Assembly (NCBI GenBank): GCA_029204225.1 | Contig: CM055092.1 | Span: forward strand, 25,501,941-25,565,940 | Direction: 5' to 3' | DNA: 64,000 bases | Origin: Diphasiastrum complanatum | Taxonomy: Eukaryota; Streptophyta; Lycopodiopsida; Lycopodiales; Lycopodiaceae | Shown here: positions 9,291-54,493 of the stretch, piece after piece | Layout of the letters: each line of letters starts with the position of its first letter | Numbering within the stretch: the first letter of the stretch is position 1 | Notes under the pieces: model-generated | What the model was told of the DNA's origin: nothing | The model's database searches: none | The model's input: only the letters and a program-made list of their open reading frames with translations | Made by a program: the position numbers and the translations under genes

Positions 9291-9329
9291 AAATATCCAG
9301 GAAATATAAAAATCCACGCCTGCTAAGGG

Positions 9330-9775: not shown

Positions 9776-9995
9776 CTACAATGTTATGTAGAACTAGTTA
9801 AAAATTTCATTTCCCTTCAAAAATATAGAATTGTTTTGTCCTCCAATATCTTAGTCTGTGTTATTCCACTTTTTATTTCATTCGTTCGTGTGGAAGCTTG
9901 TAAATGTTTCATTCTGAAACAATAATGGTTTAACTTCTAGAATTTATCACTCAATTATGGAATTGATATGCATATTTATTCCCTCTCTAGTGAGC

Positions 9996-10123
<128 letters not shown>

Positions 10124-10165
10124 TTCTTCGTCTTCAGCAACTGCGCTATAATGATGCTTAATCAT

Positions 10166-10753: not shown

Positions 10754-10758
10754 GTCAT

Positions 10759-17200: not shown

Positions 17201-18000
17201 TATCGTTTGAACTTGAGCAATTGGGTCTAAGTGTCCTTCAAAGTTCCTAAATAGTGATCCACACTGAATTGCTTACGCCTGAAGTATGATCCTCTATGAT
17301 GACCTCTTTGAAGAGTCTTCTTCTACATCTATATTTGTTGTAGGCACAACTTGAGAAGCATAGTTCAAAGGAGTCTGGCCTAGCCATTGCCCCCATCAAC
17401 CAACACTATTGATTCCCATCTACTGAGTGAGCCACCTGCATCATCTTCTCTATGAGTCTTCTACAACCTAAGACTGACCGAGTCACATGAACATAGATTT
17501 ATCATCATTCTGAGTGCGATGCACATGCGCGCTGCACATAGAGAGCCATGTTGAAGTGAGCACTAACAGCTGATTGAATGAGCAACGATTTGGAAGAAAA
17601 AAGATTACTTGTCTGGAAAGAGGTCAGCCTTGAGCATTGCTACAAAGTCTAGAGCTATCAAAAATTATCACTCTAACTCGCGTCTAGTAGCCATCATCTA
17701 TCTAATCCGTGGTAAAGGATCAGTGAGCAACCTATCTGATTAGCAACTGAAGATGCTTTAGACAAATGAAAGTAGCTTTTGATGGTTCTTATGAAGATCG
17801 AGCACCTCCTTGTCATCCATCAATAGATGAGATCGAACAATATTGCATAGAAAATGAGTCTAGGTCTACAAGATTCAAGGATAATACTACAAGAAATGTG
17901 AAAGAGTGGAAATGATTATCTATATTTTTCAAGTTGCCTTATTAGAAGGTAAGTAAAGCTCAAAGAGCTTAATTAATATACTTCAATTGTGCAGCTCTCT
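17201..18000. other. No recognisable gene
   Basis: Short frames only. An ACTACAAGAAAT motif near 17886 resembles a CACTA terminal repeat and lies just upstream of the CACTA relic. With no matching inverted end found I treat it as unproven. Confidence 0.35.
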
Positions 18001-18129
18001 TATTGCTTCTTATTGTAATACAATCAAAATTGTTTTTTCTATGTTTGTTTTGTGTAGAAATGATGTCTTCTATTCTCATTTCTTTTTTAATTCTTTCACA
18101 ATTGTCATTGATTATTTCTTATTTAACTC

Positions 18130-20048
18130 ATGAGCTATTGATTCGACACACATTTGATGTCATGCATGTGGAAAAGGAGATTATTGTTAAGACTATTTTA
18201 AAAATGGCAGATAAAGACTCTTTCAAAGTGCGAGAAGATATGAAGGCACTACGAATTCGTCCAGATCTATGGCCAAAACATTGTGGTGAAAAAAGTATTT
18301 CTACCTTCCTCACCTTATACTTTGAATAAACATGAAAAAACTTAGTTTTTTGAGTTTGTCAAAAATGTGAAAGTACCAATTGCATATTGTGCACCATTAA
18401 AGAGGCATGTAGAGAGTGACAAATTTTATGCAATGAAATCACATGACTACCATGTATTTTTACAACAGTTGTTGCCAATAGCACTAAGGCACTCTATTTC
18501 TCACAACGTTTGTTCTACCATAGTTCGCCTCAATTTGATATTTCGAAAGATATGTGCCAAGTTTATCAATCCTGAAGACTTTGACGCTTTGTATTGTGAT
18601 ACTATTCTCGTCTTATGCCAACTAGAAACGTGCTTTCCACCATCATTTTTTGACCTTACCACACATGTATTGATACATGTAGTTGAGGAAATTAACATAT
18701 GTGGACCAGTGAGACTAAGATGGATGTATCCTTTTGAAAGGTATATGAAAAAACTAAAAAAATATGTGAAAAATTTGTCCAGAAGGAAGTATAGCAAATG
18801 CCTATGTTATGGAAGAGGCAATTGGATATGTGACTGAATATATGAATGAGTTAGAAGGAAATTCCACAAGAGTGTGGGATGAAAAAGAAGATCCTCAAAA
18901 TATTGCAGAAGAATTATGTGGATATGGATCAAGCATCAAATTAGGAGATGTCATGCTACGACAAGCACACATCCGTTTGCTAGACAACTCAGAAATTGTC
19001 AATGATTATCGAAGGTATATATATAATAATTTGTTTGTCTCATTTTTTCAACAGATATATACTATAATGTTATATTATTATTCTCAAGTTATTCAACTAT
19101 TTTACATTATTGAAACGTCAATAATTTTGTTGATGTAAAAGTATATGATGTCTTATATGTTGATTGTGACGTTTTGGTAATCATATGCAGGATGTTTATG
19201 GATAGCTTGAGGCAAACAAATGTGAGATAGCTAAGTGCCCAAGGGATAGCCTCGAATTATATTCATCATTTTCTGACATGGTTAAAGAGAAAGGTAATGG
19301 TACAGTATATTTTTGAATTAACATTGGTCTTAAAAAATGATCCTTATATTGATGTCCCTAAATCATCCTAAATTTTTTTATAACGATTTGACAATGTATT
19401 ATTATGTTGGCAGGCTATTGACCTTCATGAGATAGAAAGTGATGAAGATTCCATGACACTATTATAATTGTCTCAAAGTCCACTCCCCATTGCTCGTTCA
19501 TATGAAAGCATGTATGTAAATGGATGTCTTTACAAATGTGAATCATCGGAACATGGAAAAACAACACAAAATTATGGCGTTGCTGCTTATTTTGATTCAT
19601 TGAGTTGTAGTAGCTCAAAGGACAAGAATCCAAAAGAAGCAAGGCTAGGATACTTTGTTGTTTTCAAAAATATATTTCGTTTTGATTTTGCTTCATTTTC
19701 AATAGTTTTATTCTATTGCAAGTGGTTCAAATCAATTCTAGTTGAAAGCATGCAACCATGAAGATAGACAAATATGGTTTTCAAATGGTGGACACAACGA
19801 AACTATTGAGGTCGAGAAATTTTATTGACCAACCATTTGTCTTGCCTTCACATATACATCAAGTCTTCTATGTGCCTGATCTTATAGAGCCCAATTGGAT
19901 TGTAGTGGTTAAGCATATGCCAAGACAAAGGCGAATTGTTGGCACATATGTTGTTGATGTCATCGATTTCTCCTTAGTGCGTGACTTTTCATGCCCGTTC
20001 TCATTTCCACAGGAGATCAATGTTGATAAATCGGATGCTGCATGTTAG
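18130..20048 (+). pseudogene. CACTA TNP2 3' part with DUF4218 and DUF4216 modules, broken
   Basis: The TNP2 tail is at 18130-18328 (LIRHTFDVMHVEKEI, the conserved RH-DxMH-EK block). After a stop, the DUF4218-type module covers about 18360-18800 (MKSHDYHVFLQQLLPIALR, CFPPSFFDLTTHV, GPVRLRWMYPFERYM). A frameshift near 18790 leads to the continuation at 18809-19020 (YVMEEAIGYVTEYM). An intron-like gap follows, and a DUF4216-type module covers about 19470-20048 (NYGVAAYFDS, FVLPSHIHQVFYVPDL, WIVVVKHMPR). The module order is that of plant CACTA elements. Two frameshifts and a stop show it is inactive. The 5' half is absent here. Confidence 0.88.
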
Positions 20049-21017
20049 GGTGGGGACATAATTGACTTAGATCTTGATGCTCATCATGTTCCTAAAGAGA
20101 CAAGTGATGTTTTTTATGATTAATATAAAGTTAGTGGTTGAAATCTATTAAAGCACAAGTGTATTTATGACATTATTTGTCAATCATTTTTGGATTTTTA
20201 CATTTAGATTTATAATATTCTTCAAGTTTCTAAATGAATCAAATCAGTTATCATGAATCTAATCTATCTTCATCATCTTTATTGACACGGGCCTTAGAAC
20301 TGCTACATGATCCATCGTATGAATGAAAGAAATGAAATAATTCACATATAGTGTCGATGAAAAAACAATGATTGGTGTAAATTAATAATAAGATCAAATT
20401 TCAGTTTAATTAATGTCATCAGTCATATATTATGTTGGTAATGTAAATACATTCTAGCCCAAGCTAGTTTTTTTTTCAATTGGATAAATGCCTTTAGTTA
20501 AATAGTCAAATCACATTGTATGGGCAAGATGTATAATATGAGGGGGTCAATGTGCTTGTATACAAATACAATCTAGCCCAAGCTAGTTTTCAACCCATTG
20601 GATAAATGCTGATTAAAAAAGTGCATTGTGGATTGGAAATAATTCTCATCAAAATGGACAAATCTATTGTTATAAACTTATTTATGTATCACATATATTG
20701 TATGCTATCATAAAATGCACATGCATTGTACTATTAGCAAATTACGCACACACATGCTTACAAATCAGCGAACAAATTATCTATTAATGGATCCATCAAT
20801 CAAAACATTTATCGATCTTTCCTTAACTTGTACATAGACAAAGGCTTGTCTAATCAATGGATAAACATAACACACATAAGTAGAATATAGATAGATCGAT
20901 TGGCAAATCAATAATATTAATAGATCGATAGGCATATACTTACGTGGGTATTACTTAGATTCACATGGATCCATCCATAGATCAATAGATTGATGTGTTG
21001 AACGGATTCATAGAAAG
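20049..21017. other. AT-rich spacer with a repeated 30-bp phrase
   Basis: The phrase TCTAGCCCAAGCTAGTTTT and its continuation TTGGATAAATGC occur at about 20454 and 20573, some 119 bp apart. Near 20780-20990 there are many ATCGAT/ATCAATAG variants. There is no coding sequence. The LTR array is inserted at the right end of this spacer. Confidence 0.45.
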
Positions 21018-21022
21018 GTAGG

Positions 21023-21677
21023 TGTGAGAGATTTCAACTAGTTTAGTCTAGTTTAGTCACATTTTGGTAAATTGTCAATAAGAGGCCAAAACTCATTTTA
21101 GACTTAGAGATAAACTTTTTGAAGTTATGTTAGTTTAAAATAAATTCAATAAACACTTTTTGAAAGTGTGGGAAAGTTGGTAGTCGAGTTTGAGAGAGAT
21201 TCAAATTTGAACTTTGGGTACATTGAATCTAGACCCAAAAATAGTAGGGTTTACATTTTGGAGGGAAAGCCAAGTGGCCAAATAGGGTTTGGAAACTCTA
21301 TAAAAGGATGTAACTCGCGGAGAGACACATCTTCTCTCTTCTTTCTCTCATTTCGTCATTATACATGGTTCTCTTTGGGTTCTACTACTCATTGGTGCAC
21401 TATCTTGGTGTTATCTTAAAATTCTATGTGTAGAATGATCATTTATTGCTATTTTCGGTTCCACACGTGTGAAATACAGTAGGGTACTGTAATTGTAAGG
21501 ACAGCAAACATATTTTATGTTTTTGGTTCATGTTTGATCAATATCTCTTAGAGTTTGCATCTCAATTTGTATGTAGATGCTGATTTTTCTACATTGGCAG
21601 GATTGTTGGTTTGCTCCTTATTGTAACCAAAGATTAGGGACATGGATTGGATCTTGAATGATCTGAAATCCTTCACA
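21023..21677 (+). repeat. Array LTR 1
   Basis: The outer 5' LTR. TATAAAAGG at 21299-21307 is a good TATA box, 276 bp into the LTR. The palindrome CACACGTGTG at 21472-21481, about 449 bp in, is shared with the copia A LTR at nearly the same offset. The LTR ends CTTCACA and is followed directly by the primer site. Confidence 0.95.
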
Positions 21678-21689
21678 TGGTATTAGAGC
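21678..21689 (+). other. Array primer-binding site (unit 1)
   Basis: TGGTATTAGAGC follows LTR 1; it differs from the canonical initiator-Met site at one base. Identical sites are at 24767, 27856 and 30945. None follows LTR 5, where the target duplication begins. Confidence 0.85.
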
Positions 21690-22279
21690 TCTTGTGTTTC
21701 AGGTTATGAAAGGATCAGCCATCTTTAGCAAGGATTTGGAGGAGTTACCAATGCTAGAGCATGCTAGATTGATCTCTACTAAAAAATCAGCATTTTTGCA
21801 TGTGTAGAATTGATCTTTTGTAGGTCAAAACTCAATATAGGATTAGATACTTGATCAATTCCGATTTCACACTTGGCTTACTGGAATTAGATGATTTTTG
21901 GTGCATTAGGAAGGTCTCATTGGAGTCTACAAGAAGATATACCAAGTTTCTAGAAATTGCATGTAGAATTTGAGATATTCAATTTTTTGTGATTTTGTCA
22001 AAACCCTAATTTTGATTGGATCTCTAGTTTGTGAGGTTATTGAACTTCATTTGAGTGTGTTTAAATCTTAGAAAGTGACATGAATCATTAGATTGAGGAT
22101 AGATCATAGGTTGAACAAGATTTCACTATTCTATGTGTTGAGTTTCTAGTTAGAAGTGCTAGAAGAGATTTGAGAGGTTCCATATCTTTGTGATTTCTTC
22201 TTGAGTTCATTTGTTGACATTCAAGAGAGTGCTTTGTGCATTGGAACAGGTTAAAAGAAGAAGATCAGGTCACTTCAAC

Positions 22280-23437
22280 ATGGCTACAAGTGGAGGCTTT
22301 ATGTTGGAGAGCAATGATAGGCTTACCTCAATCAACTATTCTACTTGGAAGGTGAGGATGGAGTCCTCATTGGATATGAATGAGTTGATGGAGATTGCTG
22401 CAGGTGTGGAGGAGAGACCTCAAGAACCTCAAAATCAAGTGAGGTATGACAAGAGAGCAAAGAAAGCTCTACACATGATTAAGATGAATGTTACCAATGA
22501 ACTTCTCATGGAAGTTAGTAAGTGCACATCATCTTTGGAGGCTTGGGAAGCTTTGAAGAAGCTTTATGAATCCAAGTCTACATCAAGAGTGCTTACTCTT
22601 AGGAGGCAAACCTTTCAAAGTTTGCAAAAGAAGGAAGAGAGTACTCATGCTTTTGTTTTGAGGGTTAAGGCATTCAATGATGAGTTAGCATGTATTGATA
22701 AAAGCATTAAGGAGGTAGAGCTTATTCAAGTTATACTTAATGGCTTGTTGGATGATAATGATAATCTTGTTCAAAGTTTTGCTATTCAAAATACTTGGCC
22801 AAGTATTGTGGATTTTCAAGAGATCTTGGTGAATGAGGAGTATAGGCTTCAATCAAGTGGAGGTGGATCTACATCGACATCTCATTATGAAGAGGATGCT
22901 ATGTTCATCAAAGGCAAGTTCAAGGGCAAAGACAAAGGCAAGTGGTCTAAAGGGCAAGATCAAGGTGAGACTTCTTCTTATGGAAAAAAGAAAGATAAGT
23001 CTAAGCTGAAATGCTTTTATTGTGGAATCAAAGGGCATTTTGCAAATGAATGTTTGAAGAAGCAAAGAGATGAAGGTAGCAAGCAAATCAACTTTACTAC
23101 TAATGATGAGGATCTAGGTGGTGGTGATTCTCTTTTTATGTGTTCTTCAAGTCCAATATCAAGTGAAGGTGACAAAGATTCGTGGTGGATTGATAGTGGA
23201 GCTAGCTCACACATGACTAGTCACAAGGAGTTCTTTACTTCTTTGGTCACTTATGATGGAGCCAAGAAAGCAATTCACATGGCCAATGGTGGTGAGTGTG
23301 TGATTGAAGGTATTAATTCAATTCCTATTTGTCTCTATACTAATAGGAAAGCAATACTTTATGGTGTTCTTTACATTCCTTCACTTTCAAAGAATTTGCT
23401 AAGTGTTGGTCAAATGATAGAAAAGGATACATGGTAA
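22280..23437 (+). CDS. Gag-protease polyprotein of array unit 1 (385 aa)
   Basis: I start at the ATG of MATSGGFMLESNDR because the intact copia A polyprotein starts at the equivalent MATNGGYMLESNDR; an upstream in-frame ATG at 22211 lacks this support. Domains: UBN2-type gag at about residues 10-195; a Lys/Gly-rich linker; a CCHC zinc knuckle (C245, C248, H253, C258) for RNA packaging; and an aspartic protease start with the active site WWIDSGASS (D305). The frame ends prematurely at EKDTW, where a one-base loss relative to the family shifts the downstream protease and pre-integrase sequence into another frame. Residue 40 is Ala here (GCT). The zinc knuckle and protease aspartate are intact, so a capsid-type protein could still be made. 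Integrase, RT and RNase H would have to come from elsewhere. Confidence 0.85.
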   Translation: MATSGGFMLESNDRLTSINYSTWKVRMESSLDMNELMEIAAGVEERPQEPQNQVRYDKRAKKALHMIKMNVTNELLMEVSKCTSSLEAWEALKKLYESKSTSRVLTLRRQTFQSLQKKEESTHAFVLRVKAFNDELACIDKSIKEVELIQVILNGLLDDNDNLVQSFAIQNTWPSIVDFQEILVNEEYRLQSSGGGSTSTSHYEEDAMFIKGKFKGKDKGKWSKGQDQGETSSYGKKKDKSKLKCFYCGIKGHFANECLKKQRDEGSKQINFTTNDEDLGGGDSLFMCSSSPISSEGDKDSWWIDSGASSHMTSHKEFFTSLVTYDGAKKAIHMANGGECVIEGINSIPICLYTNRKAILYGVLYIPSLSKNLLSVGQMIEKDTW

Positions 23438-24116
23438 AGTTTGGTGGTGATGCTTGGTTCATTACAAAGGAAGAAATCTTGGTTGCTAGGGGCAATAAAC
23501 AAGGTAGACTTTTCAAGCTTGATGCTTTTGTTATGGCTAACAAAAAGGATGGAATGGAAAAGGAGATTGGTCTCAACTTTCCAAAGTTACCTTTTAGCAT
23601 CAATAAGATTGGTGGATCTTATGCAAAGTCTAACAAGCTTCCTTATGTTAGATCTGGGTCAAGATCTAATATGCTTCTTGGAGATGTTCATCTTTGTGCT
23701 AACTTAGCTAGTCTTGAGGATAATGATGGTGTTTCAATGGTTCTTCATGGCAAGTGCAAGCATGCAAAAGGTAAGGAAAGATCTAACTTCATCAATGGAG
23801 GTGAAGGTTGGAGGAGACAAGCAAGCAAATGGTCATCACTCGCTGTAATTTTTTAGAGAGTTCAAAGTTTGAAACATGGAAGAATCATTTCATTCACATT
23901 CTATTTAGTTCTTTATGTTCTAGTTATATCTTGATGTGTAAAATTGATGTAAGAAATAGTGAAGCATCCAATTTGGACACTATTATCTATATCAATTATG
24001 AAAGATACTTCATAACCTTAGAAAGGAGATCTATACTTAGGATGGAGATCGTTCTAAAGTTGGATCAAAGTTCTATTGTCAAAACTATGCCAAAACTAGT
24101 TGAAGAGGGAGTGTGA
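23429..24116 (+). pseudogene. Pol remnant and 3' frame of unit 1
   Basis: The frame 23431-23856 continues the protease and pre-integrase region (MVKFGGDAWFITKEE, RGNKQGRLFKLD). It lacks the H-H half of the zinc-binding domain and keeps only the strand around LPYVRSGSRS and GDVH before diverging. A second frame, 23808-24116, ends KLVEEGV with its stop codon formed inside the first bases of the next LTR, exactly as in copia A. The integrase core, RT and RNase H, roughly 2 kb relative to copia A, are deleted. Whether 23808-24116 is translated is unknown. Confidence 0.75.
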
Positions 24117-24766
24117 GAGATTTCAACTAGTTTAGTCTAGTTTAGTCACATTTTGGTAAATTGTCAATAAGAGGCCAAAACTCATTTTAGACTTAGAGAT
24201 AAACTTTTTGAAGTTATGTTAGTTTAAAATAAATTCAATAAACACTTTTTGAAAGTGTGGGAAAGTTGGTAGTCGAGTTTGAGAGAGATTCAAATTTGAA
24301 CTTTGGGTACATTGAATCTAGACCCAAAAATAGTAGGGTTTACATTTTGGAGGGAAAGCCAAGTGGCCAAATAGGGTTTGGAAACTCTATAAAAGGATGT
24401 AACTCGCGGAGAGACACATCTTCTCTCTTCTTTCTCTCATTTCGTCATTATACATGGTTCTCTTTGGGTTCTACTACTCATTGGTGCACTATCTTGGTGT
24501 TATCTTAAAATTCTATGTGTAGAATGATCATTTATTGCTATTTTCGGTTCCACACGTGTGAAATACAGTAGGGTACTGTAATTGTAAGGACAGCAAACAT
24601 ATTTTATGTTTTTGGTTCATGTTTGATCAATATCTCTTAGAGTTTGCATCTCAATTTGTATGTAGATGCTGATTTTTCTACATTGGCAGGATTGTTGGTT
24701 TGCTCCTTATTGTAACCAAAGATTAGGGACATGGATTGGATCTTGAATGATCTGAAATCCTTCACA
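24112..24766 (+). repeat. Array LTR 2
   Basis: Internal LTR shared by units 1 and 2; no target-site duplication on either side. It is preceded by the polypurine tract of unit 1 and followed by the primer site of unit 2. TATA box at 24388. Confidence 0.95.
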
Positions 24767-25368
24767 TGGTATTAGAGCTCTTGTGTTTCAGGTTATGAAA
24801 GGATCAGCCATCTTTAGCAAGGATTTGGAGGAGTTACCAATGCTAGAGCATGCTAGATTGATCTCTACTAAAAAATCAGCATTTTTGCATGTGTAGAATT
24901 GATCTTTTGTAGGTCAAAACTCAATATAGGATTAGATACTTGATCAATTCCGATTTCACACTTGGCTTACTGGAATTAGATGATTTTTGGTGCATTAGGA
25001 AGGTCTCATTGGAGTCTACAAGAAGATATACCAAGTTTCTAGAAATTGCATGTAGAATTTGAGATATTCAATTTTTTGTGATTTTGTCAAAACCCTAATT
25101 TTGATTGGATCTCTAGTTTGTGAGGTTATTGAACTTCATTTGAGTGTGTTTAAATCTTAGAAAGTGACATGAATCATTAGATTGAGGATAGATCATAGGT
25201 TGAACAAGATTTCACTATTCTATGTGTTGAGTTTCTAGTTAGAAGTGCTAGAAGAGATTTGAGAGGTTCCATATCTTTGTGATTTCTTCTTGAGTTCATT
25301 TGTTGACATTCAAGAGAGTGCTTTGTGCATTGGAACAGGTTAAAAGAAGAAGATCAGGTCACTTCAAC

Positions 25369-26526
25369 ATGGCTACAAGTGGAGGCTTTATGTTGGAGAG
25401 CAATGATAGGCTTACCTCAATCAACTATTCTACTTGGAAGGTGAGGATGGAGTCCTCATTGGATATGAATGAGTTGATGGAGATTGTTGCAGGTGTGGAG
25501 GAGAGACCTCAAGAACCTCAAAATCAAGTGAGGTATGACAAGAGAGCAAAGAAAGCTCTACACATGATTAAGATGAATGTTACCAATGAACTTCTCATGG
25601 AAGTTAGTAAGTGCACATCATCTTTGGAGGCTTGGGAAGCTTTGAAGAAGCTTTATGAATCCAAGTCTACATCAAGAGTGCTTACTCTTAGGAGGCAAAC
25701 CTTTCAAAGTTTGCAAAAGAAGGAAGAGAGTACTCATGCTTTTGTTTTGAGGGTTAAGGCATTCAATGATGAGTTAGCATGTATTGATAAAAGCATTAAG
25801 GAGGTAGAGCTTATTCAAGTTATACTTAATGGCTTGTTGGATGATAATGATAATCTTGTTCAAAGTTTTGCTATTCAAAATACTTGGCCAAGTATTGTGG
25901 ATTTTCAAGAGATCTTGGTGAATGAGGAGTATAGGCTTCAATCAAGTGGAGGTGGATCTACATCGACATCTCATTATGAAGAGGATGCTATGTTCATCAA
26001 AGGCAAGTTCAAGGGCAAAGACAAAGGCAAGTGGTCTAAAGGGCAAGATCAAGGTGAGACTTCTTCTTATGGAAAAAAGAAAGATAAGTCTAAGCTGAAA
26101 TGCTTTTATTGTGGAATCAAAGGGCATTTTGCAAATGAATGTTTGAAGAAGCAAAGAGATGAAGGTAGCAAGCAAATCAACTTTACTACTAATGATGAGG
26201 ATCTAGGTGGTGGTGATTCTCTTTTTATGTGTTCTTCAAGTCCAATATCAAGTGAAGGTGACAAAGATTCGTGGTGGATTGATAGTGGAGCTAGCTCACA
26301 CATGACTAGTCACAAGGAGTTCTTTACTTCTTTGGTCACTTATGATGGAGCCAAGAAAGCAATTCACATGGCCAATGGTGGTGAGTGTGTGATTGAAGGT
26401 ATTAATTCAATTCCTATTTGTCTCTATACTAATAGGAAAGCAATACTTTATGGTGTTCTTTACATTCCTTCACTTTCAAAGAATTTGCTAAGTGTTGGTC
26501 AAATGATAGAAAAGGATACATGGTAA
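25369..26526 (+). CDS. Gag-protease polyprotein of array unit 2 (385 aa)
   Basis: Identical to the unit 1 protein except residue 40, which is Val (GTT; T at 25487). It has the same premature end at EKDTW. Confidence 0.85.
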   Translation: MATSGGFMLESNDRLTSINYSTWKVRMESSLDMNELMEIVAGVEERPQEPQNQVRYDKRAKKALHMIKMNVTNELLMEVSKCTSSLEAWEALKKLYESKSTSRVLTLRRQTFQSLQKKEESTHAFVLRVKAFNDELACIDKSIKEVELIQVILNGLLDDNDNLVQSFAIQNTWPSIVDFQEILVNEEYRLQSSGGGSTSTSHYEEDAMFIKGKFKGKDKGKWSKGQDQGETSSYGKKKDKSKLKCFYCGIKGHFANECLKKQRDEGSKQINFTTNDEDLGGGDSLFMCSSSPISSEGDKDSWWIDSGASSHMTSHKEFFTSLVTYDGAKKAIHMANGGECVIEGINSIPICLYTNRKAILYGVLYIPSLSKNLLSVGQMIEKDTW

Positions 26527-27205
26527 AGTTTGGTGGTGATGCTTGGTTCATTACAAAGGAAGAAATCTTGGTTGCTAGGGGCAATAAACAAGGTAGACTT
26601 TTCAAGCTTGATGCTTTTGTTATGGCTAACAAAAAGGATGGAATGGAAAAGGAGATTGGTCTCAACTTTCCAAAGTTACCTTTTAGCATCAATAAGATTG
26701 GTGGATCTTATGCAAAGTCTAACAAGCTTCCTTATGTTAGATCTGGGTCAAGATCTAATATGCTTCTTGGAGATGTTCATCTTTGTGCTAACTTAGCTAG
26801 TCTTGAGGATAATGATGGTGTTTCAATGGTTCTTCATGGCAAGTGCAAGCATGCAAAAGGTAAGGAAAGATCTAACTTCATCAATGGAGGTGAAGGTTGG
26901 AGGAGACAAGCAAGCAAATGGTCATCACTCGCTGTAATTTTTTAGAGAGTTCAAAGTTTGAAACATGGAAGAATCATTTCATTCACATTCTATTTAGTTC
27001 TTTATGTTCTAGTTATATCTTGATGTGTAAAATTGATGTAAGAAATAGTGAAGCATCCAATTTGGACACTATTATCTATATCAATTATGAAAGATACTTC
27101 ATAACCTTAGAAAGGAGATCTATACTTAGGATGGAGATCGTTCTAAAGTTGGATCAAAGTTCTATTGTCAAAACTATGCCAAAACTAGTTGAAGAGGGAG
27201 TGTGA
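26518..27205 (+). pseudogene. Pol remnant and 3' frame of unit 2
   Basis: Same frameshifted protease/pre-integrase piece (26520-26945) and terminal frame (26897-27205) as unit 1, with the same deletion. Confidence 0.75.
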
Positions 27206-27855
27206 GAGATTTCAACTAGTTTAGTCTAGTTTAGTCACATTTTGGTAAATTGTCAATAAGAGGCCAAAACTCATTTTAGACTTAGAGATAAACTTTTTGA
27301 AGTTATGTTAGTTTAAAATAAATTCAATAAACACTTTTTGAAAGTGTGGGAAAGTTGGTAGTCGAGTTTGAGAGAGATTCAAATTTGAACTTTGGGTACA
27401 TTGAATCTAGACCCAAAAATAGTAGGGTTTACATTTTGGAGGGAAAGCCAAGTGGCCAAATAGGGTTTGGAAACTCTATAAAAGGATGTAACTCGCGGAG
27501 AGACACATCTTCTCTCTTCTTTCTCTCATTTCGTCATTATACATGGTTCTCTTTGGGTTCTACTACTCATTGGTGCACTATCTTGGTGTTATCTTAAAAT
27601 TCTATGTGTAGAATGATCATTTATTGCTATTTTCGGTTCCACACGTGTGAAATACAGTAGGGTACTGTAATTGTAAGGACAGCAAACATATTTTATGTTT
27701 TTGGTTCATGTTTGATCAATATCTCTTAGAGTTTGCATCTCAATTTGTATGTAGATGCTGATTTTTCTACATTGGCAGGATTGTTGGTTTGCTCCTTATT
27801 GTAACCAAAGATTAGGGACATGGATTGGATCTTGAATGATCTGAAATCCTTCACA
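27201..27855 (+). repeat. Array LTR 3
   Basis: Internal LTR shared by units 2 and 3, identical to the others by eye. It is the boundary between the two repeated C-T blocks of the array. Confidence 0.95.
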
Positions 27856-28457
27856 TGGTATTAGAGCTCTTGTGTTTCAGGTTATGAAAGGATCAGCCAT
27901 CTTTAGCAAGGATTTGGAGGAGTTACCAATGCTAGAGCATGCTAGATTGATCTCTACTAAAAAATCAGCATTTTTGCATGTGTAGAATTGATCTTTTGTA
28001 GGTCAAAACTCAATATAGGATTAGATACTTGATCAATTCCGATTTCACACTTGGCTTACTGGAATTAGATGATTTTTGGTGCATTAGGAAGGTCTCATTG
28101 GAGTCTACAAGAAGATATACCAAGTTTCTAGAAATTGCATGTAGAATTTGAGATATTCAATTTTTTGTGATTTTGTCAAAACCCTAATTTTGATTGGATC
28201 TCTAGTTTGTGAGGTTATTGAACTTCATTTGAGTGTGTTTAAATCTTAGAAAGTGACATGAATCATTAGATTGAGGATAGATCATAGGTTGAACAAGATT
28301 TCACTATTCTATGTGTTGAGTTTCTAGTTAGAAGTGCTAGAAGAGATTTGAGAGGTTCCATATCTTTGTGATTTCTTCTTGAGTTCATTTGTTGACATTC
28401 AAGAGAGTGCTTTGTGCATTGGAACAGGTTAAAAGAAGAAGATCAGGTCACTTCAAC

Positions 28458-29615
28458 ATGGCTACAAGTGGAGGCTTTATGTTGGAGAGCAATGATAGGC
28501 TTACCTCAATCAACTATTCTACTTGGAAGGTGAGGATGGAGTCCTCATTGGATATGAATGAGTTGATGGAGATTGCTGCAGGTGTGGAGGAGAGACCTCA
28601 AGAACCTCAAAATCAAGTGAGGTATGACAAGAGAGCAAAGAAAGCTCTACACATGATTAAGATGAATGTTACCAATGAACTTCTCATGGAAGTTAGTAAG
28701 TGCACATCATCTTTGGAGGCTTGGGAAGCTTTGAAGAAGCTTTATGAATCCAAGTCTACATCAAGAGTGCTTACTCTTAGGAGGCAAACCTTTCAAAGTT
28801 TGCAAAAGAAGGAAGAGAGTACTCATGCTTTTGTTTTGAGGGTTAAGGCATTCAATGATGAGTTAGCATGTATTGATAAAAGCATTAAGGAGGTAGAGCT
28901 TATTCAAGTTATACTTAATGGCTTGTTGGATGATAATGATAATCTTGTTCAAAGTTTTGCTATTCAAAATACTTGGCCAAGTATTGTGGATTTTCAAGAG
29001 ATCTTGGTGAATGAGGAGTATAGGCTTCAATCAAGTGGAGGTGGATCTACATCGACATCTCATTATGAAGAGGATGCTATGTTCATCAAAGGCAAGTTCA
29101 AGGGCAAAGACAAAGGCAAGTGGTCTAAAGGGCAAGATCAAGGTGAGACTTCTTCTTATGGAAAAAAGAAAGATAAGTCTAAGCTGAAATGCTTTTATTG
29201 TGGAATCAAAGGGCATTTTGCAAATGAATGTTTGAAGAAGCAAAGAGATGAAGGTAGCAAGCAAATCAACTTTACTACTAATGATGAGGATCTAGGTGGT
29301 GGTGATTCTCTTTTTATGTGTTCTTCAAGTCCAATATCAAGTGAAGGTGACAAAGATTCGTGGTGGATTGATAGTGGAGCTAGCTCACACATGACTAGTC
29401 ACAAGGAGTTCTTTACTTCTTTGGTCACTTATGATGGAGCCAAGAAAGCAATTCACATGGCCAATGGTGGTGAGTGTGTGATTGAAGGTATTAATTCAAT
29501 TCCTATTTGTCTCTATACTAATAGGAAAGCAATACTTTATGGTGTTCTTTACATTCCTTCACTTTCAAAGAATTTGCTAAGTGTTGGTCAAATGATAGAA
29601 AAGGATACATGGTAA
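28458..29615 (+). CDS. Gag-protease polyprotein of array unit 3 (385 aa)
   Basis: Carries Ala at residue 40 (C at 28576), so it matches unit 1 rather than its neighbours. It has the same knuckle, protease motif and frameshift. Confidence 0.85.
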   Translation: MATSGGFMLESNDRLTSINYSTWKVRMESSLDMNELMEIAAGVEERPQEPQNQVRYDKRAKKALHMIKMNVTNELLMEVSKCTSSLEAWEALKKLYESKSTSRVLTLRRQTFQSLQKKEESTHAFVLRVKAFNDELACIDKSIKEVELIQVILNGLLDDNDNLVQSFAIQNTWPSIVDFQEILVNEEYRLQSSGGGSTSTSHYEEDAMFIKGKFKGKDKGKWSKGQDQGETSSYGKKKDKSKLKCFYCGIKGHFANECLKKQRDEGSKQINFTTNDEDLGGGDSLFMCSSSPISSEGDKDSWWIDSGASSHMTSHKEFFTSLVTYDGAKKAIHMANGGECVIEGINSIPICLYTNRKAILYGVLYIPSLSKNLLSVGQMIEKDTW

Positions 29616-30294
29616 AGTTTGGTGGTGATGCTTGGTTCATTACAAAGGAAGAAATCTTGGTTGCTAGGGGCAATAAACAAGGTAGACTTTTCAAGCTTGA
29701 TGCTTTTGTTATGGCTAACAAAAAGGATGGAATGGAAAAGGAGATTGGTCTCAACTTTCCAAAGTTACCTTTTAGCATCAATAAGATTGGTGGATCTTAT
29801 GCAAAGTCTAACAAGCTTCCTTATGTTAGATCTGGGTCAAGATCTAATATGCTTCTTGGAGATGTTCATCTTTGTGCTAACTTAGCTAGTCTTGAGGATA
29901 ATGATGGTGTTTCAATGGTTCTTCATGGCAAGTGCAAGCATGCAAAAGGTAAGGAAAGATCTAACTTCATCAATGGAGGTGAAGGTTGGAGGAGACAAGC
30001 AAGCAAATGGTCATCACTCGCTGTAATTTTTTAGAGAGTTCAAAGTTTGAAACATGGAAGAATCATTTCATTCACATTCTATTTAGTTCTTTATGTTCTA
30101 GTTATATCTTGATGTGTAAAATTGATGTAAGAAATAGTGAAGCATCCAATTTGGACACTATTATCTATATCAATTATGAAAGATACTTCATAACCTTAGA
30201 AAGGAGATCTATACTTAGGATGGAGATCGTTCTAAAGTTGGATCAAAGTTCTATTGTCAAAACTATGCCAAAACTAGTTGAAGAGGGAGTGTGA
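29607..30294 (+). pseudogene. Pol remnant and 3' frame of unit 3
   Basis: Pieces at 29609-30034 and 29986-30294, as in unit 1. Confidence 0.75.
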
Positions 30295-30944
30295 GAGATT
30301 TCAACTAGTTTAGTCTAGTTTAGTCACATTTTGGTAAATTGTCAATAAGAGGCCAAAACTCATTTTAGACTTAGAGATAAACTTTTTGAAGTTATGTTAG
30401 TTTAAAATAAATTCAATAAACACTTTTTGAAAGTGTGGGAAAGTTGGTAGTCGAGTTTGAGAGAGATTCAAATTTGAACTTTGGGTACATTGAATCTAGA
30501 CCCAAAAATAGTAGGGTTTACATTTTGGAGGGAAAGCCAAGTGGCCAAATAGGGTTTGGAAACTCTATAAAAGGATGTAACTCGCGGAGAGACACATCTT
30601 CTCTCTTCTTTCTCTCATTTCGTCATTATACATGGTTCTCTTTGGGTTCTACTACTCATTGGTGCACTATCTTGGTGTTATCTTAAAATTCTATGTGTAG
30701 AATGATCATTTATTGCTATTTTCGGTTCCACACGTGTGAAATACAGTAGGGTACTGTAATTGTAAGGACAGCAAACATATTTTATGTTTTTGGTTCATGT
30801 TTGATCAATATCTCTTAGAGTTTGCATCTCAATTTGTATGTAGATGCTGATTTTTCTACATTGGCAGGATTGTTGGTTTGCTCCTTATTGTAACCAAAGA
30901 TTAGGGACATGGATTGGATCTTGAATGATCTGAAATCCTTCACA
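30290..30944 (+). repeat. Array LTR 4
   Basis: Internal LTR shared by units 3 and 4, again without target duplication. Confidence 0.95.
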
Positions 30945-31546
30945 TGGTATTAGAGCTCTTGTGTTTCAGGTTATGAAAGGATCAGCCATCTTTAGCAAGG
31001 ATTTGGAGGAGTTACCAATGCTAGAGCATGCTAGATTGATCTCTACTAAAAAATCAGCATTTTTGCATGTGTAGAATTGATCTTTTGTAGGTCAAAACTC
31101 AATATAGGATTAGATACTTGATCAATTCCGATTTCACACTTGGCTTACTGGAATTAGATGATTTTTGGTGCATTAGGAAGGTCTCATTGGAGTCTACAAG
31201 AAGATATACCAAGTTTCTAGAAATTGCATGTAGAATTTGAGATATTCAATTTTTTGTGATTTTGTCAAAACCCTAATTTTGATTGGATCTCTAGTTTGTG
31301 AGGTTATTGAACTTCATTTGAGTGTGTTTAAATCTTAGAAAGTGACATGAATCATTAGATTGAGGATAGATCATAGGTTGAACAAGATTTCACTATTCTA
31401 TGTGTTGAGTTTCTAGTTAGAAGTGCTAGAAGAGATTTGAGAGGTTCCATATCTTTGTGATTTCTTCTTGAGTTCATTTGTTGACATTCAAGAGAGTGCT
31501 TTGTGCATTGGAACAGGTTAAAAGAAGAAGATCAGGTCACTTCAAC

Positions 31547-32704
31547 ATGGCTACAAGTGGAGGCTTTATGTTGGAGAGCAATGATAGGCTTACCTCAATC
31601 AACTATTCTACTTGGAAGGTGAGGATGGAGTCCTCATTGGATATGAATGAGTTGATGGAGATTGTTGCAGGTGTGGAGGAGAGACCTCAAGAACCTCAAA
31701 ATCAAGTGAGGTATGACAAGAGAGCAAAGAAAGCTCTACACATGATTAAGATGAATGTTACCAATGAACTTCTCATGGAAGTTAGTAAGTGCACATCATC
31801 TTTGGAGGCTTGGGAAGCTTTGAAGAAGCTTTATGAATCCAAGTCTACATCAAGAGTGCTTACTCTTAGGAGGCAAACCTTTCAAAGTTTGCAAAAGAAG
31901 GAAGAGAGTACTCATGCTTTTGTTTTGAGGGTTAAGGCATTCAATGATGAGTTAGCATGTATTGATAAAAGCATTAAGGAGGTAGAGCTTATTCAAGTTA
32001 TACTTAATGGCTTGTTGGATGATAATGATAATCTTGTTCAAAGTTTTGCTATTCAAAATACTTGGCCAAGTATTGTGGATTTTCAAGAGATCTTGGTGAA
32101 TGAGGAGTATAGGCTTCAATCAAGTGGAGGTGGATCTACATCGACATCTCATTATGAAGAGGATGCTATGTTCATCAAAGGCAAGTTCAAGGGCAAAGAC
32201 AAAGGCAAGTGGTCTAAAGGGCAAGATCAAGGTGAGACTTCTTCTTATGGAAAAAAGAAAGATAAGTCTAAGCTGAAATGCTTTTATTGTGGAATCAAAG
32301 GGCATTTTGCAAATGAATGTTTGAAGAAGCAAAGAGATGAAGGTAGCAAGCAAATCAACTTTACTACTAATGATGAGGATCTAGGTGGTGGTGATTCTCT
32401 TTTTATGTGTTCTTCAAGTCCAATATCAAGTGAAGGTGACAAAGATTCGTGGTGGATTGATAGTGGAGCTAGCTCACACATGACTAGTCACAAGGAGTTC
32501 TTTACTTCTTTGGTCACTTATGATGGAGCCAAGAAAGCAATTCACATGGCCAATGGTGGTGAGTGTGTGATTGAAGGTATTAATTCAATTCCTATTTGTC
32601 TCTATACTAATAGGAAAGCAATACTTTATGGTGTTCTTTACATTCCTTCACTTTCAAAGAATTTGCTAAGTGTTGGTCAAATGATAGAAAAGGATACATG
32701 GTAA
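31547..32704 (+). CDS. Gag-protease polyprotein of array unit 4 (385 aa)
   Basis: Carries Val at residue 40 (T at 31665), matching unit 2. Otherwise identical to the other units. Confidence 0.85.
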   Translation: MATSGGFMLESNDRLTSINYSTWKVRMESSLDMNELMEIVAGVEERPQEPQNQVRYDKRAKKALHMIKMNVTNELLMEVSKCTSSLEAWEALKKLYESKSTSRVLTLRRQTFQSLQKKEESTHAFVLRVKAFNDELACIDKSIKEVELIQVILNGLLDDNDNLVQSFAIQNTWPSIVDFQEILVNEEYRLQSSGGGSTSTSHYEEDAMFIKGKFKGKDKGKWSKGQDQGETSSYGKKKDKSKLKCFYCGIKGHFANECLKKQRDEGSKQINFTTNDEDLGGGDSLFMCSSSPISSEGDKDSWWIDSGASSHMTSHKEFFTSLVTYDGAKKAIHMANGGECVIEGINSIPICLYTNRKAILYGVLYIPSLSKNLLSVGQMIEKDTW

Positions 32705-33383
32705 AGTTTGGTGGTGATGCTTGGTTCATTACAAAGGAAGAAATCTTGGTTGCTAGGGGCAATAAACAAGGTAGACTTTTCAAGCTTGATGCTTTTGTTA
32801 TGGCTAACAAAAAGGATGGAATGGAAAAGGAGATTGGTCTCAACTTTCCAAAGTTACCTTTTAGCATCAATAAGATTGGTGGATCTTATGCAAAGTCTAA
32901 CAAGCTTCCTTATGTTAGATCTGGGTCAAGATCTAATATGCTTCTTGGAGATGTTCATCTTTGTGCTAACTTAGCTAGTCTTGAGGATAATGATGGTGTT
33001 TCAATGGTTCTTCATGGCAAGTGCAAGCATGCAAAAGGTAAGGAAAGATCTAACTTCATCAATGGAGGTGAAGGTTGGAGGAGACAAGCAAGCAAATGGT
33101 CATCACTCGCTGTAATTTTTTAGAGAGTTCAAAGTTTGAAACATGGAAGAATCATTTCATTCACATTCTATTTAGTTCTTTATGTTCTAGTTATATCTTG
33201 ATGTGTAAAATTGATGTAAGAAATAGTGAAGCATCCAATTTGGACACTATTATCTATATCAATTATGAAAGATACTTCATAACCTTAGAAAGGAGATCTA
33301 TACTTAGGATGGAGATCGTTCTAAAGTTGGATCAAAGTTCTATTGTCAAAACTATGCCAAAACTAGTTGAAGAGGGAGTGTGA
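32696..33383 (+). pseudogene. Pol remnant and 3' frame of unit 4
   Basis: Pieces at 32698-33123 and 33075-33383, as in unit 1; the final stop lies in LTR 5. Confidence 0.75.
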
Positions 33384-34033
33384 GAGATTTCAACTAGTTT
33401 AGTCTAGTTTAGTCACATTTTGGTAAATTGTCAATAAGAGGCCAAAACTCATTTTAGACTTAGAGATAAACTTTTTGAAGTTATGTTAGTTTAAAATAAA
33501 TTCAATAAACACTTTTTGAAAGTGTGGGAAAGTTGGTAGTCGAGTTTGAGAGAGATTCAAATTTGAACTTTGGGTACATTGAATCTAGACCCAAAAATAG
33601 TAGGGTTTACATTTTGGAGGGAAAGCCAAGTGGCCAAATAGGGTTTGGAAACTCTATAAAAGGATGTAACTCGCGGAGAGACACATCTTCTCTCTTCTTT
33701 CTCTCATTTCGTCATTATACATGGTTCTCTTTGGGTTCTACTACTCATTGGTGCACTATCTTGGTGTTATCTTAAAATTCTATGTGTAGAATGATCATTT
33801 ATTGCTATTTTCGGTTCCACACGTGTGAAATACAGTAGGGTACTGTAATTGTAAGGACAGCAAACATATTTTATGTTTTTGGTTCATGTTTGATCAATAT
33901 CTCTTAGAGTTTGCATCTCAATTTGTATGTAGATGCTGATTTTTCTACATTGGCAGGATTGTTGGTTTGCTCCTTATTGTAACCAAAGATTAGGGACATG
34001 GATTGGATCTTGAATGATCTGAAATCCTTCACA
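33379..34033 (+). repeat. Array LTR 5 (outer 3' LTR)
   Basis: Ends CTTCACA at 34033, followed by target duplication GTAGG instead of a primer site, which marks the true right border of the insertion. Confidence 0.95.
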
Positions 34034-34038
34034 GTAGG

Positions 34039-34913: not shown

Positions 34914-35735
34914 ATCATGTATGTGAGCGTTGTGCTTTGGCAAAGCCACATAGATTACCTTATGTTAGATCTAGTGTGAGATCTAAAAGGCCTCTTCAAC
35001 TTTTATATTCGGATGTGCACTCAACTCATACCTTCAGTCTTGGTGGATCAAGGATGTATGTAACTTTCATTGACAATTTTAGTATATTTTGTTGGGTTTA
35101 TCTACTAAAGACCAAGGATGAGGTGTTTGTTGTTTTTGTCAAGTTCAAGAATGTGGTAGAAAATCAACTCAACACTAGGATCAAATGCTTAAGATCTAAT
35201 AATGGAGAAGAATTCAAATCAAAGAGGTTCAATGCATTTTGTGAGGCACATGGGATTAAGAGGGAGCTCTCATGTCCAAGGACACCACAACAAAATGGGA
35301 TCACCGAGAGGAAGAATAGATCTCTTTGTGAGATGGCAAAAGAAAGGAGGTTATATGCTAATCTTTCTAAGTTTTATTGAGGTGAGGCTTTAATGTGTGC
35401 TAACTATCTTGGAAAAAGAAGATCCAATGTTACTTTGGATGATAGATCTCCTTATGAGGCTCTTTATGGTAGGAGGCCGAATGTTAAGCATTATAGAATC
35501 TTTGTTAACCACCTAAGAAAATACAATAACAAAATTACACATCAAGACTATCTTATTCAAACCAGTCACTACAAATATCTAAATGTTATGTTATAACAAA
35601 GAATGCCACCCAACACTTCACCACATTTGATGAACTAGTATTGCGTGTTGAAGTAGATACAACCTAAAAATTGCCCCTCTTTGCCCTATATTGTGAGCCA
35701 CAAAGACTCGGTCTTGCGTCTTGAAGATCTCCACA
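34914..35735 (+). pseudogene. Copia integrase fragment E1
   Basis: The frame begins with the zinc-binding tail (CERCALAKPHRLPY). The integrase core follows with YSDVH (first Asp kept), WVYLLKTKDEVF, CLRSNNGEEF (second catalytic Asp replaced by Asn) and QQNGITERKNR (Glu kept). A TGA interrupts after ANLSKFY at about 35378; the frame resumes as GEALMCANYLGKR and ends at 35596. Gag, protease, RT and LTRs are absent. By its LPYVRS block it is related to the array element and copia A. The 3' portion (35189-35735) is duplicated at 37467-38011. Confidence 0.85.
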
Positions 35736-39996: not shown

Positions 39997-41175
39997 CCTT
40001 TAACTTGAAAACTTCTCGAGTTGAGTGCATTTTATATTGCTTTACTAATCTGCCATGAAGACCTCATTTTCTATCAAAAAAAAATTATGTGCATATTGCA
40101 AGTTAATCTTTCTAACTCAAGAACTTCATTAAGGAAACTGCATGAAAAACATAAAGCTTTATAAGTATGACAGTCTAGAACCTTGAACTCGAGAACTTTT
40201 CGAGTTGAAAGTCATGTCAGTTCATGACACAAATTTACATGTTAGTTTCTATGAAAATTTCATACGTACACTACTCGAGGTAAAGTGCAACTTTAGAACT
40301 TTTCAATATTAAGCTATTGCATAGTCATTTGCCAATACTTTCATAATCTATTCTATATTAATTTCTTTGGAAATGCATGATGTCGTGTAATATCTAACTC
40401 CTCTTTCAATATATTATAATTTGACTTTTATGAGCTTTTGTTAAAGTGAATGATTGCATGTGAGGCGCCTAACTTCAAAACTTTGAGTTGAAGTACGGGC
40501 TCACTTCATTACCAATAATAAAAAATTTGGAATTCTATAATTGCTCTATTCAAGCTCAAACTCAATAATTTCTCGAGTTAATATAATGTCACACTTATTT
40601 ATTACTATTTAAGTATTTTGTTTTATATTAGAGTTTTTAGACCCTGCAACGGGAACATGAAACCTAAAAAGAGTTGGACTTCAGATTGGCATACTTCTTT
40701 GTTACTATTTAAAAATGTTGTTTTGTTTCTTCTGCTCAGAAAAAAAATTCAAAAGCAAAATCCAACTAGGACACCAACTCGAGAAATTCTCGAGTTGAAA
40801 TGAGTGAACTTTTTGAATTTTACTCTCAGCATTTTGATACATAGTTACAAAGCTTCCCTTCAACTTGGAAAGTTCTCGAGTTGATGTCATGTTTTGGATT
40901 TTCCTTTCAAACTTTTTTTGGCAAAGACATGACTTCAACTCGAGAAGTTCTTGAGTTGAAGTCATGTCTTTTATGTCTTGGAAACATGGTGTACGTCTAA
41001 TGTTTTGGTTGACTTGAGATTGAGAAAAAAAAGATAATTTGTAACTAATTCATATAGCATCTGCTCTACACATCAAAAATTCTAAATTGTTTTTGCTTTG
41101 TCATTCTTTTAGTAATGCGACTTTATGATTCTTGACTTTTCTATGATCCATGCCTTCAACTTGAGAAATTTTGGG
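39997..41175. repeat. Cluster of CTCGAG-centred palindromes (copy 2 and upstream extension)
   Basis: At least eight members, near 39999-40024, 40185-40208, 40474-40498, 40560-40582, 40776-40796 (perfect), 40857-40884, 40918-40965 and 41152-41175. Those after 40518 are the duplicate of 42-668. The ones before it show the cluster extends beyond the copy visible at the window start. Confidence 0.7.
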
Positions 41176-41360
41176 TTAGTGGATAAATATGAGAAGTAGT
41201 CCTGGTTTGAATAATTTTTTGTCTTAAAAAATCAACTCTTTGAAATTGCTATTTGAATTAACACTTTTGACTCCAGTTTGTTTTTTACTTGAAACTTTAG
41301 TGATGGACATTAATAGTCAAAAACATTTTCTTTGACCTTGTTATTCCTATTACTTTTCAT

Positions 41361-43320
41361 GCAGCTTCAAAAGGGAGACAAATTAGTTATAAGCTTGGAA
41401 GGATGTGATGTCGCTACTAGAACAATCTTTTCCCTTGATCCAAATAATATGTGTCAGGGTATTATGATTTGGCGAAGGTCGTGCTTTAATACACGTTGAA
41501 AAGGTAATTACGCCAGGAAAAGAACTTCCTTTTCCATCAATTGGATAGAAACAATAGACGAGGCATTGGTTAGTTTCGCAATATGGAGGCTATGTGACAT
41601 CAAAATATGTACATTGCAAGGTAAAAATCATTTGGTGGATATTAACCAATCATGATCTTCTAATGCTCCATCTTCAGCAATTCAATGGGAAAGTCCGACT
41701 TATAGACATCAACCAATGACTGTATTGACTTTGTGGAATTTCATATTTCTTTGGATACAACCAAACCACAAGACGACTTTCCACTATTGAAGAATTCAAA
41801 GAGACACCATCATGAAATATCAGACGAAATTATACAAAGCATTTGCTTGAAAGATACAAAAAGGAAAAGGATATGCGAAAAAACGGATGTAGCTTCACTA
41901 TCGATGATACATTGTTGTACACGTCGTTGCCGTCAAATGGCAAGACATGATGCTATAAAAATGGGTTTGTGAACAATATTGGTGACAAAATTTTTCAAGT
42001 CATCATACATATGTATTTGATGCAATGTCAATGGCCCCAAGAAGCTTGATGTAATGAAAAAGGACTATCACAATCCACATTTTCATGTATGTGGAATGCA
42101 GAGTTCAAGGAAGTCCAAACAGACAAAAATAATGGATTTTCGAAGTGTGACTTTTGCACATCTATCAAGATGAAGTTGATGTCAACTAAAGTTCAATCTG
42201 AGAAAGCAAAGTACATTCAAGAAAGAGATCACCATAATAGTCTTCAACAACATTGTTGAATGGAGTACCACACTTATCGAAATCTTTCTTGCACTAGACC
42301 TGACAAATATCTTTGTATTATACATGATAAAATGGACCAGAAAAAGACTAGTTCGCCAAGATTGTATCCAGAACCAAAAGCGACATCAAATGCTTTTTCA
42401 TTACCAATCTCACTGACTGGAATGTTAACTCATGGGCATGAGCCAAAGGCATTTGGACACTTTGGATTGGCCTTATGGAAGGGCGATTCTAATTTCACAG
42501 TTGGTTTAGTTGCTAGATGTTTGAGAAATTTGGAAACATTCGATTTAAGTGCCTATAATGAGCATGTCAGCTTTGTTGAAGATACAAGAGGTATCTTTGG
42601 GGCATTATTGAACAAAGAAGCAAGTGAAGGTGTTAAAAACCTTGTGCCTACTCATAAAATTATTGTTCGAGATCATGAAGCATCACATCGAACCATAATT
42701 CCAAATGCATCTACCTTGAAACGTCTTCCAAAAAGGTTGATTCTACAAATGGACAACTCAAGATAGGACAATAAAAATCGATTGATGTTTTCCTATTTAT
42801 CACTACTTGTTGCTAAGGACATATTTGAAGAGATCATATTAAAACTTTTAATGGTTGGACATACTCATGAAGATATTGGTTCGGAAAGCTTTCAGATGAT
42901 CTACGAAGATCAAGTGTCTACACACTACCACAATTGTTGGAAATATTTAAATATTGTGAGAAAAAGCAAATGCCGCCATCATTGTTGATACAAGAGGTTC
43001 CGGATTTTAAGGCTTTCGTGGAAGGATACATTCCAAATGGTGCCGAAGAATTAATTGGTCATAGTCGACCATTACAATTTCGGTTTTCTCTATCCGATTC
43101 TTTCCCAGCTATGCACTACAAAATGCATCCACAAGATTTGGAATGGCTACCTACCAATGGTATTGAAATGTGGAAAAGAAATGTTGATGGTACTCCCAAG
43201 CTTGCTGATGGTAATCCTCAACCTGTACCTAGCTCATTTGTAAAAGATGTGGAACTTGTGTTTGATGGAATCAAAAAACTCACAAACTACTGGAAAAAGT
43301 TCCAAAACGTCCAAGAGTTT
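41361..43320 (+). pseudogene. DUF7869-like transposon gene, mostly preserved but broken
   Basis: Exon-like coding starts after a GCAG acceptor at about 41363 (LQKGDKLVISLEGCDV, then TIDEAL..FAIWRLCDI in a shifted frame, reminiscent of DUF8039). The main part follows: basic segment and cysteine pair at 41733-41970; KCDFC-type motif and IHDKMDQKKT near 42150-42350; FGHFGLALWKGDSN; then QMDNSR-stop-DNKNR near 42750, where a TAG replaces a lysine codon. LLVAKDIFEEI and VGHTHEDIG follow at 42805-42885. The tail (EVPDFKAFVEGYIP, WKRNVDGTP) runs to about 43320, where an antisense copia relic begins. The spaced D...D...HTHED pattern looks like a transposase-type catalytic core; that is inference. Several stops and shifts mean it is dead. 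Confidence 0.65.
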
Positions 43321-43321
43321 G

Positions 43322-43502
43322 CATTTAGTATAAGCATAAGAACTAGCCCCACTCTCAATCCACCATGTGCCATTGGAGTAGCTCTTGCTTATTGGTGTAG
43401 ATGCCATCAAGGATGAATCAACTTCATTCTCATAATCCTCAATGGTAAGATTGTCTTGCTTGCTCTCATCTTGTGCATTCTTCTTTTTGTAGCACTGGGA
43501 TG
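43322..43502 (-). pseudogene. Copia gag-protease relic, protease half (split by copia A)
   Basis: On the minus strand this continues the relic at 49364-49510: knuckle end SQC, a Lys/Asp-rich linker, then TWWIESGASSY, a protease active site in which the usual Asp is Glu. It closely resembles the relic at 61495-61996. It is inserted antisense in the DUF7869-like gene. Confidence 0.7.
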
Positions 43503-44155
43503 TGTGAAAAACTCAGATCCAAAAGATGCTAAAGTTTCATAAAGATCTTGGCCATGGAAGTTATGCACATCTAGATTGAAAAAATGATAGAAATTGTGAT
43601 GTTAAGCATACTAAACATCAACTAAACATCAAAATCTGATCATAAGCTTCCACAAACAGAAACTTGCTGTCCCTGTCCGTACTTCAGAGCCTACAACCTG
43701 CATTTCACACGTGTGAAGCCATAGCAACAAAGAAATCACAATTCTAGTGGCTAGAATGCAAGATATGAACAAAAAAGTGAGAGAGAAGAAGATGGACCTT
43801 CAAAGAGCATAACATTCATTCAATAGAATGAAAATGAGATGTGTACATACTCGTGGAGATGGCTATTTATAGCAGCCATAGTGCCTCTTGGCCACTTGTC
43901 TTATGATAGGCTAAAATTGGGGTCCAATAGGATTCACCCATATACCTAGAAATTTGGTCAAATAGGAATGCACCAAATTATGAGCCAATAGAAGAGCTCC
44001 ACACTCGACCTCCTCTAATTAATGTGACCTCAAAAGTAGTGTACACATACTTTGGGCCTCTACATACATGTATGAACCTATCTCTAACTTTTATTTGGCC
44101 ATAGGCCTACAAAATCTCAAGTTAGGAAAATACTACTAGTTGACAATTTTTCACA
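43503..44155 (-). repeat. Copia A 3' LTR
   Basis: Element orientation is minus, so this is the downstream LTR. TATAAATA (complement 43864-43871) is the likely TATA box. The 14-bp palindrome TTCACACGTGTGAA at 43704-43717 is shared with the array LTRs. Confidence 0.95.
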
Positions 44156-49510: not shown

Positions 49511-49559
49511 GATTGATTGGTTTTTATCGCTTATCAATGGATTTGACCCCTACCATGCG

Positions 49560-54460: not shown

Positions 54461-54493
<33 letters not shown>

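Follow-up and report, generated by a model that had tools for sequence, protein, structure and literature searches.

Architecture and coding content of the array

We analyzed a 64-kb window (the whole stretch of Diphasiastrum complanatum DNA considered here, 64,000 bases), in which an LTR retrotransposon forms a tandem array on the plus strand. Its five LTRs of 655 bp and four interiors of 2434 bp alternate with an exact period of 3089 bp: LTR 1 (21023-21677), interior 1 (21678-24111), LTR 2 (24112-24766), interior 2 (24767-27200), LTR 3 (27201-27855), interior 3 (27856-30289), LTR 4 (30290-30944), interior 4 (30945-33378) and LTR 5 (33379-34033), all four LTR start-to-start distances being 3089. 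The inner LTRs 2, 3 and 4 are shared between units. There are no differences among the five LTRs across their 655 bp, and they carry TG...CA ends and a TATA-like string (21299-21306 in LTR 1). From this layout the initial annotation predicted five promoters, four potentially packaging-competent RNAs and longer read-through transcripts. Matching copies of GTAGG flank the array as a whole (21018-21022 and 34034-34038); further GTAGG strings occur within it, none of them at an LTR edge. The initial annotation had reported both the alternation at 3089 bp and a duplication confined to the outer ends, and coordinates and sequence identity bear out both. The locus thus shows the defining features of a tandem LTR retrotransposon array, with an LTR at both ends, alternating parts and one target-site duplication (TSD) round the whole. 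Identity over 13 kb at a 3089-bp period makes chance impossible. Nested insertion was ruled out, as the inner LTRs abut the interiors directly, without TSDs. The array is genuine in the assembly and very likely exists in the plant, where its unit number is probably as assembled.

Each of the four interiors keeps the primer site TGGTATTAGAGC (at 21678 in unit 1), which we take to be of the initiator-Met type, and the polypurine tract GAAGAGGGAG (24102-24111 in unit 1), as had been annotated. The interiors differ at a single site, which reads C at 22398, T at 25487, C at 28576 and T at 31665. All 14 rows from relatives carry T there, 10 of them within the same 13-base context, though some of these rows may duplicate one another; C is therefore the newer state.

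All four units carry a 408-aa open reading frame in the ORF list, the translations being those of units 1 and 2; in unit 1 it spans 22211-23437 (+) and begins at TTG, the first ATG of the gag-like reading lying at 22280. It matches Retrotran_gag_2 (E 5.4e-19), a gag of Copia type, together with a zf-CCHC zinc knuckle and Pol_BBD (6.3e-23). The second ORF of the unit (141 aa) has no Pfam match up to E 0.001, and Pfam finds neither reverse transcriptase (RT) nor integrase in the unit. Judged by these domains, the unit is a putative non-autonomous Copia element with gag. The gag-protease frame of the initial annotation thus stands as a gag-type frame in every unit, but the Pfam domains are those just named and the frame is shorter than that of a relative on contig C7.

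The unit carries an internal deletion, which we traced in the plant's own genome of 1,744,706,496 bases in 5176 contigs. The C7 copy has about 1560 bp that the unit lacks; the junction, which shows a 3-bp GTT overlap, lies at 23809/23810, 26898/26899, 29987/29988 and 33076/33077 in the four units. An interior query returned the four array units and 36 further matches at 95-98% (40 scored of 8827 candidates); these 36 all end between interior positions 2042 and 2132, and in 31 the end is at 2132. A query spanning the junction aligned end-to-end in the four array units only, the other 36 of its 40 scored matches (of 1184 candidates) stopping at query position 128-131, and no 3089-bp form at any other locus was among them. 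The form without the deletion is thus dispersed in the genome, whereas the 3089-bp form is single-locus among scored matches. The four units derive from one copy, since all four have the deletion and the other 36 of 40 matches lack it.

In the C7 relative, an 883-codon open frame (L046:5129-7780, minus strand) extends past the deletion point, whereas the frame of the array unit stops earlier. Up to E 1, Pfam finds in this frame only Pol_BBD, the zinc knuckle and a weak partial gag match, and neither RT nor integrase in the relative. About 500 residues past gag have no Pfam match and stay open where pol would be expected.

Without RT or integrase and with a shortened frame, the array unit would need a helper to move. 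A Copia relative lies nearby at 43503-49363 (minus strand); it looks young and autonomous, with LTRs alike at 653/653 positions, a GGATG TSD and a single frame of 1330 aa that holds gag, an integrase core and RVT_2. Its gag DNA is about 81% alike to that of the array, and in this neighbor integrase precedes RT (rve at 509-608, then RVT_2 at 839-1082). This element or its kind may act as the helper.

The surroundings hold other repeats. An old integrase fragment adjoins the array (34937-35377, +; rve E 7.3e-10). A local duplication pairs 1-2594 with 40518-50684 in direct orientation and 6669-12443 with 51856-56997 in inverted orientation, its larger pieces being 88-95% alike. Two 0.5-kb tandem copies, about 99% alike, occupy 54111-55162.

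The insertion site and its copy on C4

The flanks of the array belong to a dispersed host repeat, which offers paralogous views of the insertion site. Five of six such sites (two on C9, two on C17 and one on C8) run uninterrupted with a single GTAGG, and the sixth, on C24, lacks the stretch. Together with the outer-only TSD, these empty sites support one insertion event, as the initial annotation had proposed.

The right flank has a near-identical copy on C4, at 99.2% over 4.8 kb (19 mismatches) and, farther along, at 99.6% over 6 kb (21 mismatches), which gives a divergence between the array's contig, C1, and C4 of 40 in about 10,800 (0.37%). The C4 sequence starts at 10819506, within the LTR at LTR position 404, and keeps the junction of LTR 5, GTAGG and flank. 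Upstream of this LTR remnant lies a run of N from 10809506 to 10819505; all positions sampled (10809506-10814300, 10817000-10817300 and 10818000-10819505) are N, and the run, likely exactly 10,000 long, is taken as an assembly gap. The LTR part on C4 has the array-private state at all three such sites that it covers, as well as two substitutions and four net extra bases absent from the 17 other LTR rows compared. On this sequence evidence, the C4 copy would share the insertion of the array by descent. Since it carries the LTR-GTAGG junction, the insertion predates the C1/C4 split. The C4 stretch may be a duplicate of the locus or an allele put in the wrong place.

Over the interval that corresponds to 35600-57200, C4 falls 6390 bases short. 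Judged by spacing, the neighboring Copia element is probably missing from C4, and C4 may have one of the two 0.5-kb tandem copies; the shortfall would fit the absence of that element with its TSD (5866) and of one 0.5-kb duplicate.

We then compared the age of the units with that of the insertion. With half the divergence placed on the C1 branch, about 24 substitutions are expected in the 13,011-base array since the split, and one is seen (P 8.6e-10). Smaller shares for C1 weaken the contrast, with P 7.6e-5 for a quarter, 0.047 for a tenth and 0.31 for a twentieth. Taken by itself, the pair of outer LTRs is uninformative (2.4 substitutions expected, 0 seen, P 0.09). Substitution rates of 1.3e-8 and 7e-9 per site and year would put the last doubling at less than about 18,000 to 33,000 years ago and the C1/C4 split at about 142,000 to 265,000 years. 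The units therefore look far younger than the insertion, although gene conversion between units would mimic youth too, and errors close to the C4 contig end would inflate the age of the split. The very recent expansion that the initial annotation offered, beside ongoing homogenization, fits the units but not the insertion, which is older than the split.

Related arrays elsewhere in the genome

A query that ran from the end of an interior through the LTR into the start of an interior (40 matches scored out of 5553 candidates) matched in full, beyond the three inner LTRs here, at four places, one on C7, two on C8 and one on C15. It matched nearly in full at three more, on C1027, C21 (31904658) and C1950, and a second query added C2582. 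The places on C7, C8 and C15 were read and compared, and the junctions on C1027, C21 and C1950 against 1.5 kb of flank.

The C15 array has three LTRs and two interiors within a TAGAG TSD. Its LTRs differ at 6/653 (LTR1-LTR3), 6/653 (LTR1-LTR2) and 2/653 (LTR2-LTR3) positions, against 1/4178 for the interiors, and the contrast between outer LTRs and interiors is strong (Fisher P 3.7e-5). With polarity set by 14 other LTRs, the middle LTR has at sites 2 and 156 a derived state that LTR3 also carries, and at site 609 one that LTR1 carries; the derived state at 156 is present also in 1 of the 14. Such a mosaic order is expected if the 3' LTR on one chromatid crossed over with the 5' LTR on its partner; its 3' half depends on one site, where repeated mutation is possible.

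A two-LTR copy at C15:25537900-25543384 (+) is 99% alike to the C15 array, has an equal period and is possibly its unexpanded copy. A search with the joined flanks of the C15 array gave 46 rows, of which 40 cross the join and represent empty sites in a host repeat, and the other six cover 1-125 only; the array's own locus and that at 25.54 Mb are both absent from the 46. Similar two-LTR copies with equal spacing, perhaps mutual duplicates, lie at C8:4861827-4867282, C24:571127-576582 and C24:610329-615783.

The C8 array has three full LTRs and a partial fourth within an ATCAT TSD. The full LTRs differ at 11/643 (LTR1-LTR2), 10/643 (LTR1-LTR3) and 1/643 (LTR2-LTR3) positions. Interiors 1 and 2 differ at 35/4093, with an 80-base gap between the C8 units, and interiors 2 and 3 at 33/2981, while 1 and 3 differ at only 2/3141, an A-B-A order. 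LTR1-LTR3 against interiors 1-3 gives Fisher P 9e-7, and LTR1-LTR2 against interiors 1-2 is marginal (P 0.05). The partial last LTR differs from each of the others by six substitutions and an 11-base gap over about 156 aligned bases, in an alignment that is uncertain in part, beside a T-run. The C7 place holds two LTRs plus 228 bp of another interior. Here late duplication is without support, because LTRs (13/653) and interior (6/228) show no contrast.

Origin of the array and comparison with known tandem elements

We consider it likely that the array arose by unequal exchange between LTRs after one insertion, growing from one to two to four units by end-to-end doubling. One non-autonomous Copia element with two LTRs would have inserted at GTAGG, and misaligned LTRs of sister chromatids or homologues would then have exchanged to give two units with three LTRs. 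Unit 1 would then have changed from T to C, and a second exchange, in which the last LTR on one chromatid paired with the first on its partner, would have produced four units with five LTRs. A pair doubled after the change would therefore show the order C-T-C-T. We enumerated gain-only histories in which a single mutation precedes the last gain: reaching four units in two gains yields only C-T-C-T and T-C-T-C, and three gains yield nine other patterns, never these two. The doubling argument is carried by one SNP. We infer that the exchange was a crossover at the array locus; it cannot be mapped within the array, because the five LTRs are identical. The A-B-A order on C8 is compatible with doubling followed by deletion, though it is no proof.

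The initial annotation had offered unequal exchange and integration of a multimer as equal options. The C4 copy and the sister arrays support exchange and make the multimer the weaker option. A multimer formed beforehand, as tandem RNA, cDNA or concatenated circles, and integrated in one event would account for the single TSD and for LTR divergence resembling interior divergence on C7, and this route has been proposed for tandem LTR retrotransposons (PMC11899658; PMC7215508). Units of a multimer should nevertheless match the insertion in age, against the 1 substitution seen where 24 were expected, and the interiors on C15 and C8 are much younger than the outer LTRs. The mosaic middle LTR on C15 argues against it as well, and we regard multimer integration as very unlikely. 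An extrachromosomal circle of one or two units, excised and recombined back into the locus, would by reasoning yield the same products, C-T-C-T included; it takes one more step, no sign of circles was found here, and we give it hardly any credence.

The unit number could also be an assembly error, a loop having been repeated by the assembler, perhaps over a heterozygous C/T pair. The unit order has no anchors, as the units are identical except at one site, and a pair read twice would also give C-T-C-T; on C4 the sequence begins in the same LTR after the N run, where the assembly broke once at the repeat. Yet both sides show flank and TSD properly arranged, the 40 scored matches included no leftover contig with identical units, and loop repetition cannot make sister arrays whose units differ, as on C8 (35/4093 and the 80-base gap). 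We therefore think such an error improbable. Altogether, the C4 copy, the age contrast on C15 and C8 and the mosaic LTR on C15 point to recombination after insertion.

It is possible, and we suggest it only tentatively, that tandems in the Copia family of the array generally enlarge by successive doublings of the entire array (1, 2, 4), each through end-to-end LTR exchange. If so, the signature would be young interiors inside old outer LTRs, mosaic inner LTRs and a period-2 order of variants. It would be readable from one genome and would decide, locus by locus, whether a tandem formed at insertion or later. Such arrays are a plausible first step from transposon to satellite repeat, and they are places where assemblies break.

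TR-GAG elements have LTRs, a primer site and gag but neither RT nor integrase, and the array unit shares these traits. Unlike TR-GAG elements, which are dispersed, its 3089-bp form occurs at one locus among the 40 scored matches (the four that cross the junction are all array units), and its frame ends early.

The five-LTR/four-interior kind is already known, and the value of the present array is as evidence on mechanism. Its layout is that of the maize TRIM L5I4 (PMC4717578), a PCR-checked set of five LTRs and four interiors enclosed by one TSD. L5I4 is under 1 kb and TRIMs are tiny and without gag, in contrast to the gag-bearing unit of 3089 bp here. Cassandra likewise forms long arrays of near-identical alternating LTRs and interiors, which reach 12 repeats according to PMC7215508, where BARE1 three-LTR structures are cited as well. 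Cassandra LTRs contain 5S RNA sequence in that account, whereas the array LTR has none by Rfam, which gave no match at gathering score in the 64-kb window; a tRNA scan of the window found nothing. By unit size, gag and the absence of a 5S RNA match, the array is neither a TRIM nor a Cassandra element.

Also close are the tandem LTR retrotransposons inside one TSD that Morales-Diaz et al. (2025, PMC11899658) describe from rice, Arabidopsis, almond and cotton. They share with the array alternating LTRs and interiors, shared inner LTRs, one 5-nt TSD and high identity, and they include copia elements. Both of the loci detailed there have two units, while ours has four, built from a Copia unit with an internal deletion. 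Neither outer-versus-interior dating nor a mosaic-LTR test was found in the available portions of the open-access papers (PMC11899658, PMC4717578 and PMC7215508); the combined test of age contrast and mosaic requires an assembly only. PMC11899658 leaves the origin of its tandems open, whereas here the dating favors recombination after insertion.
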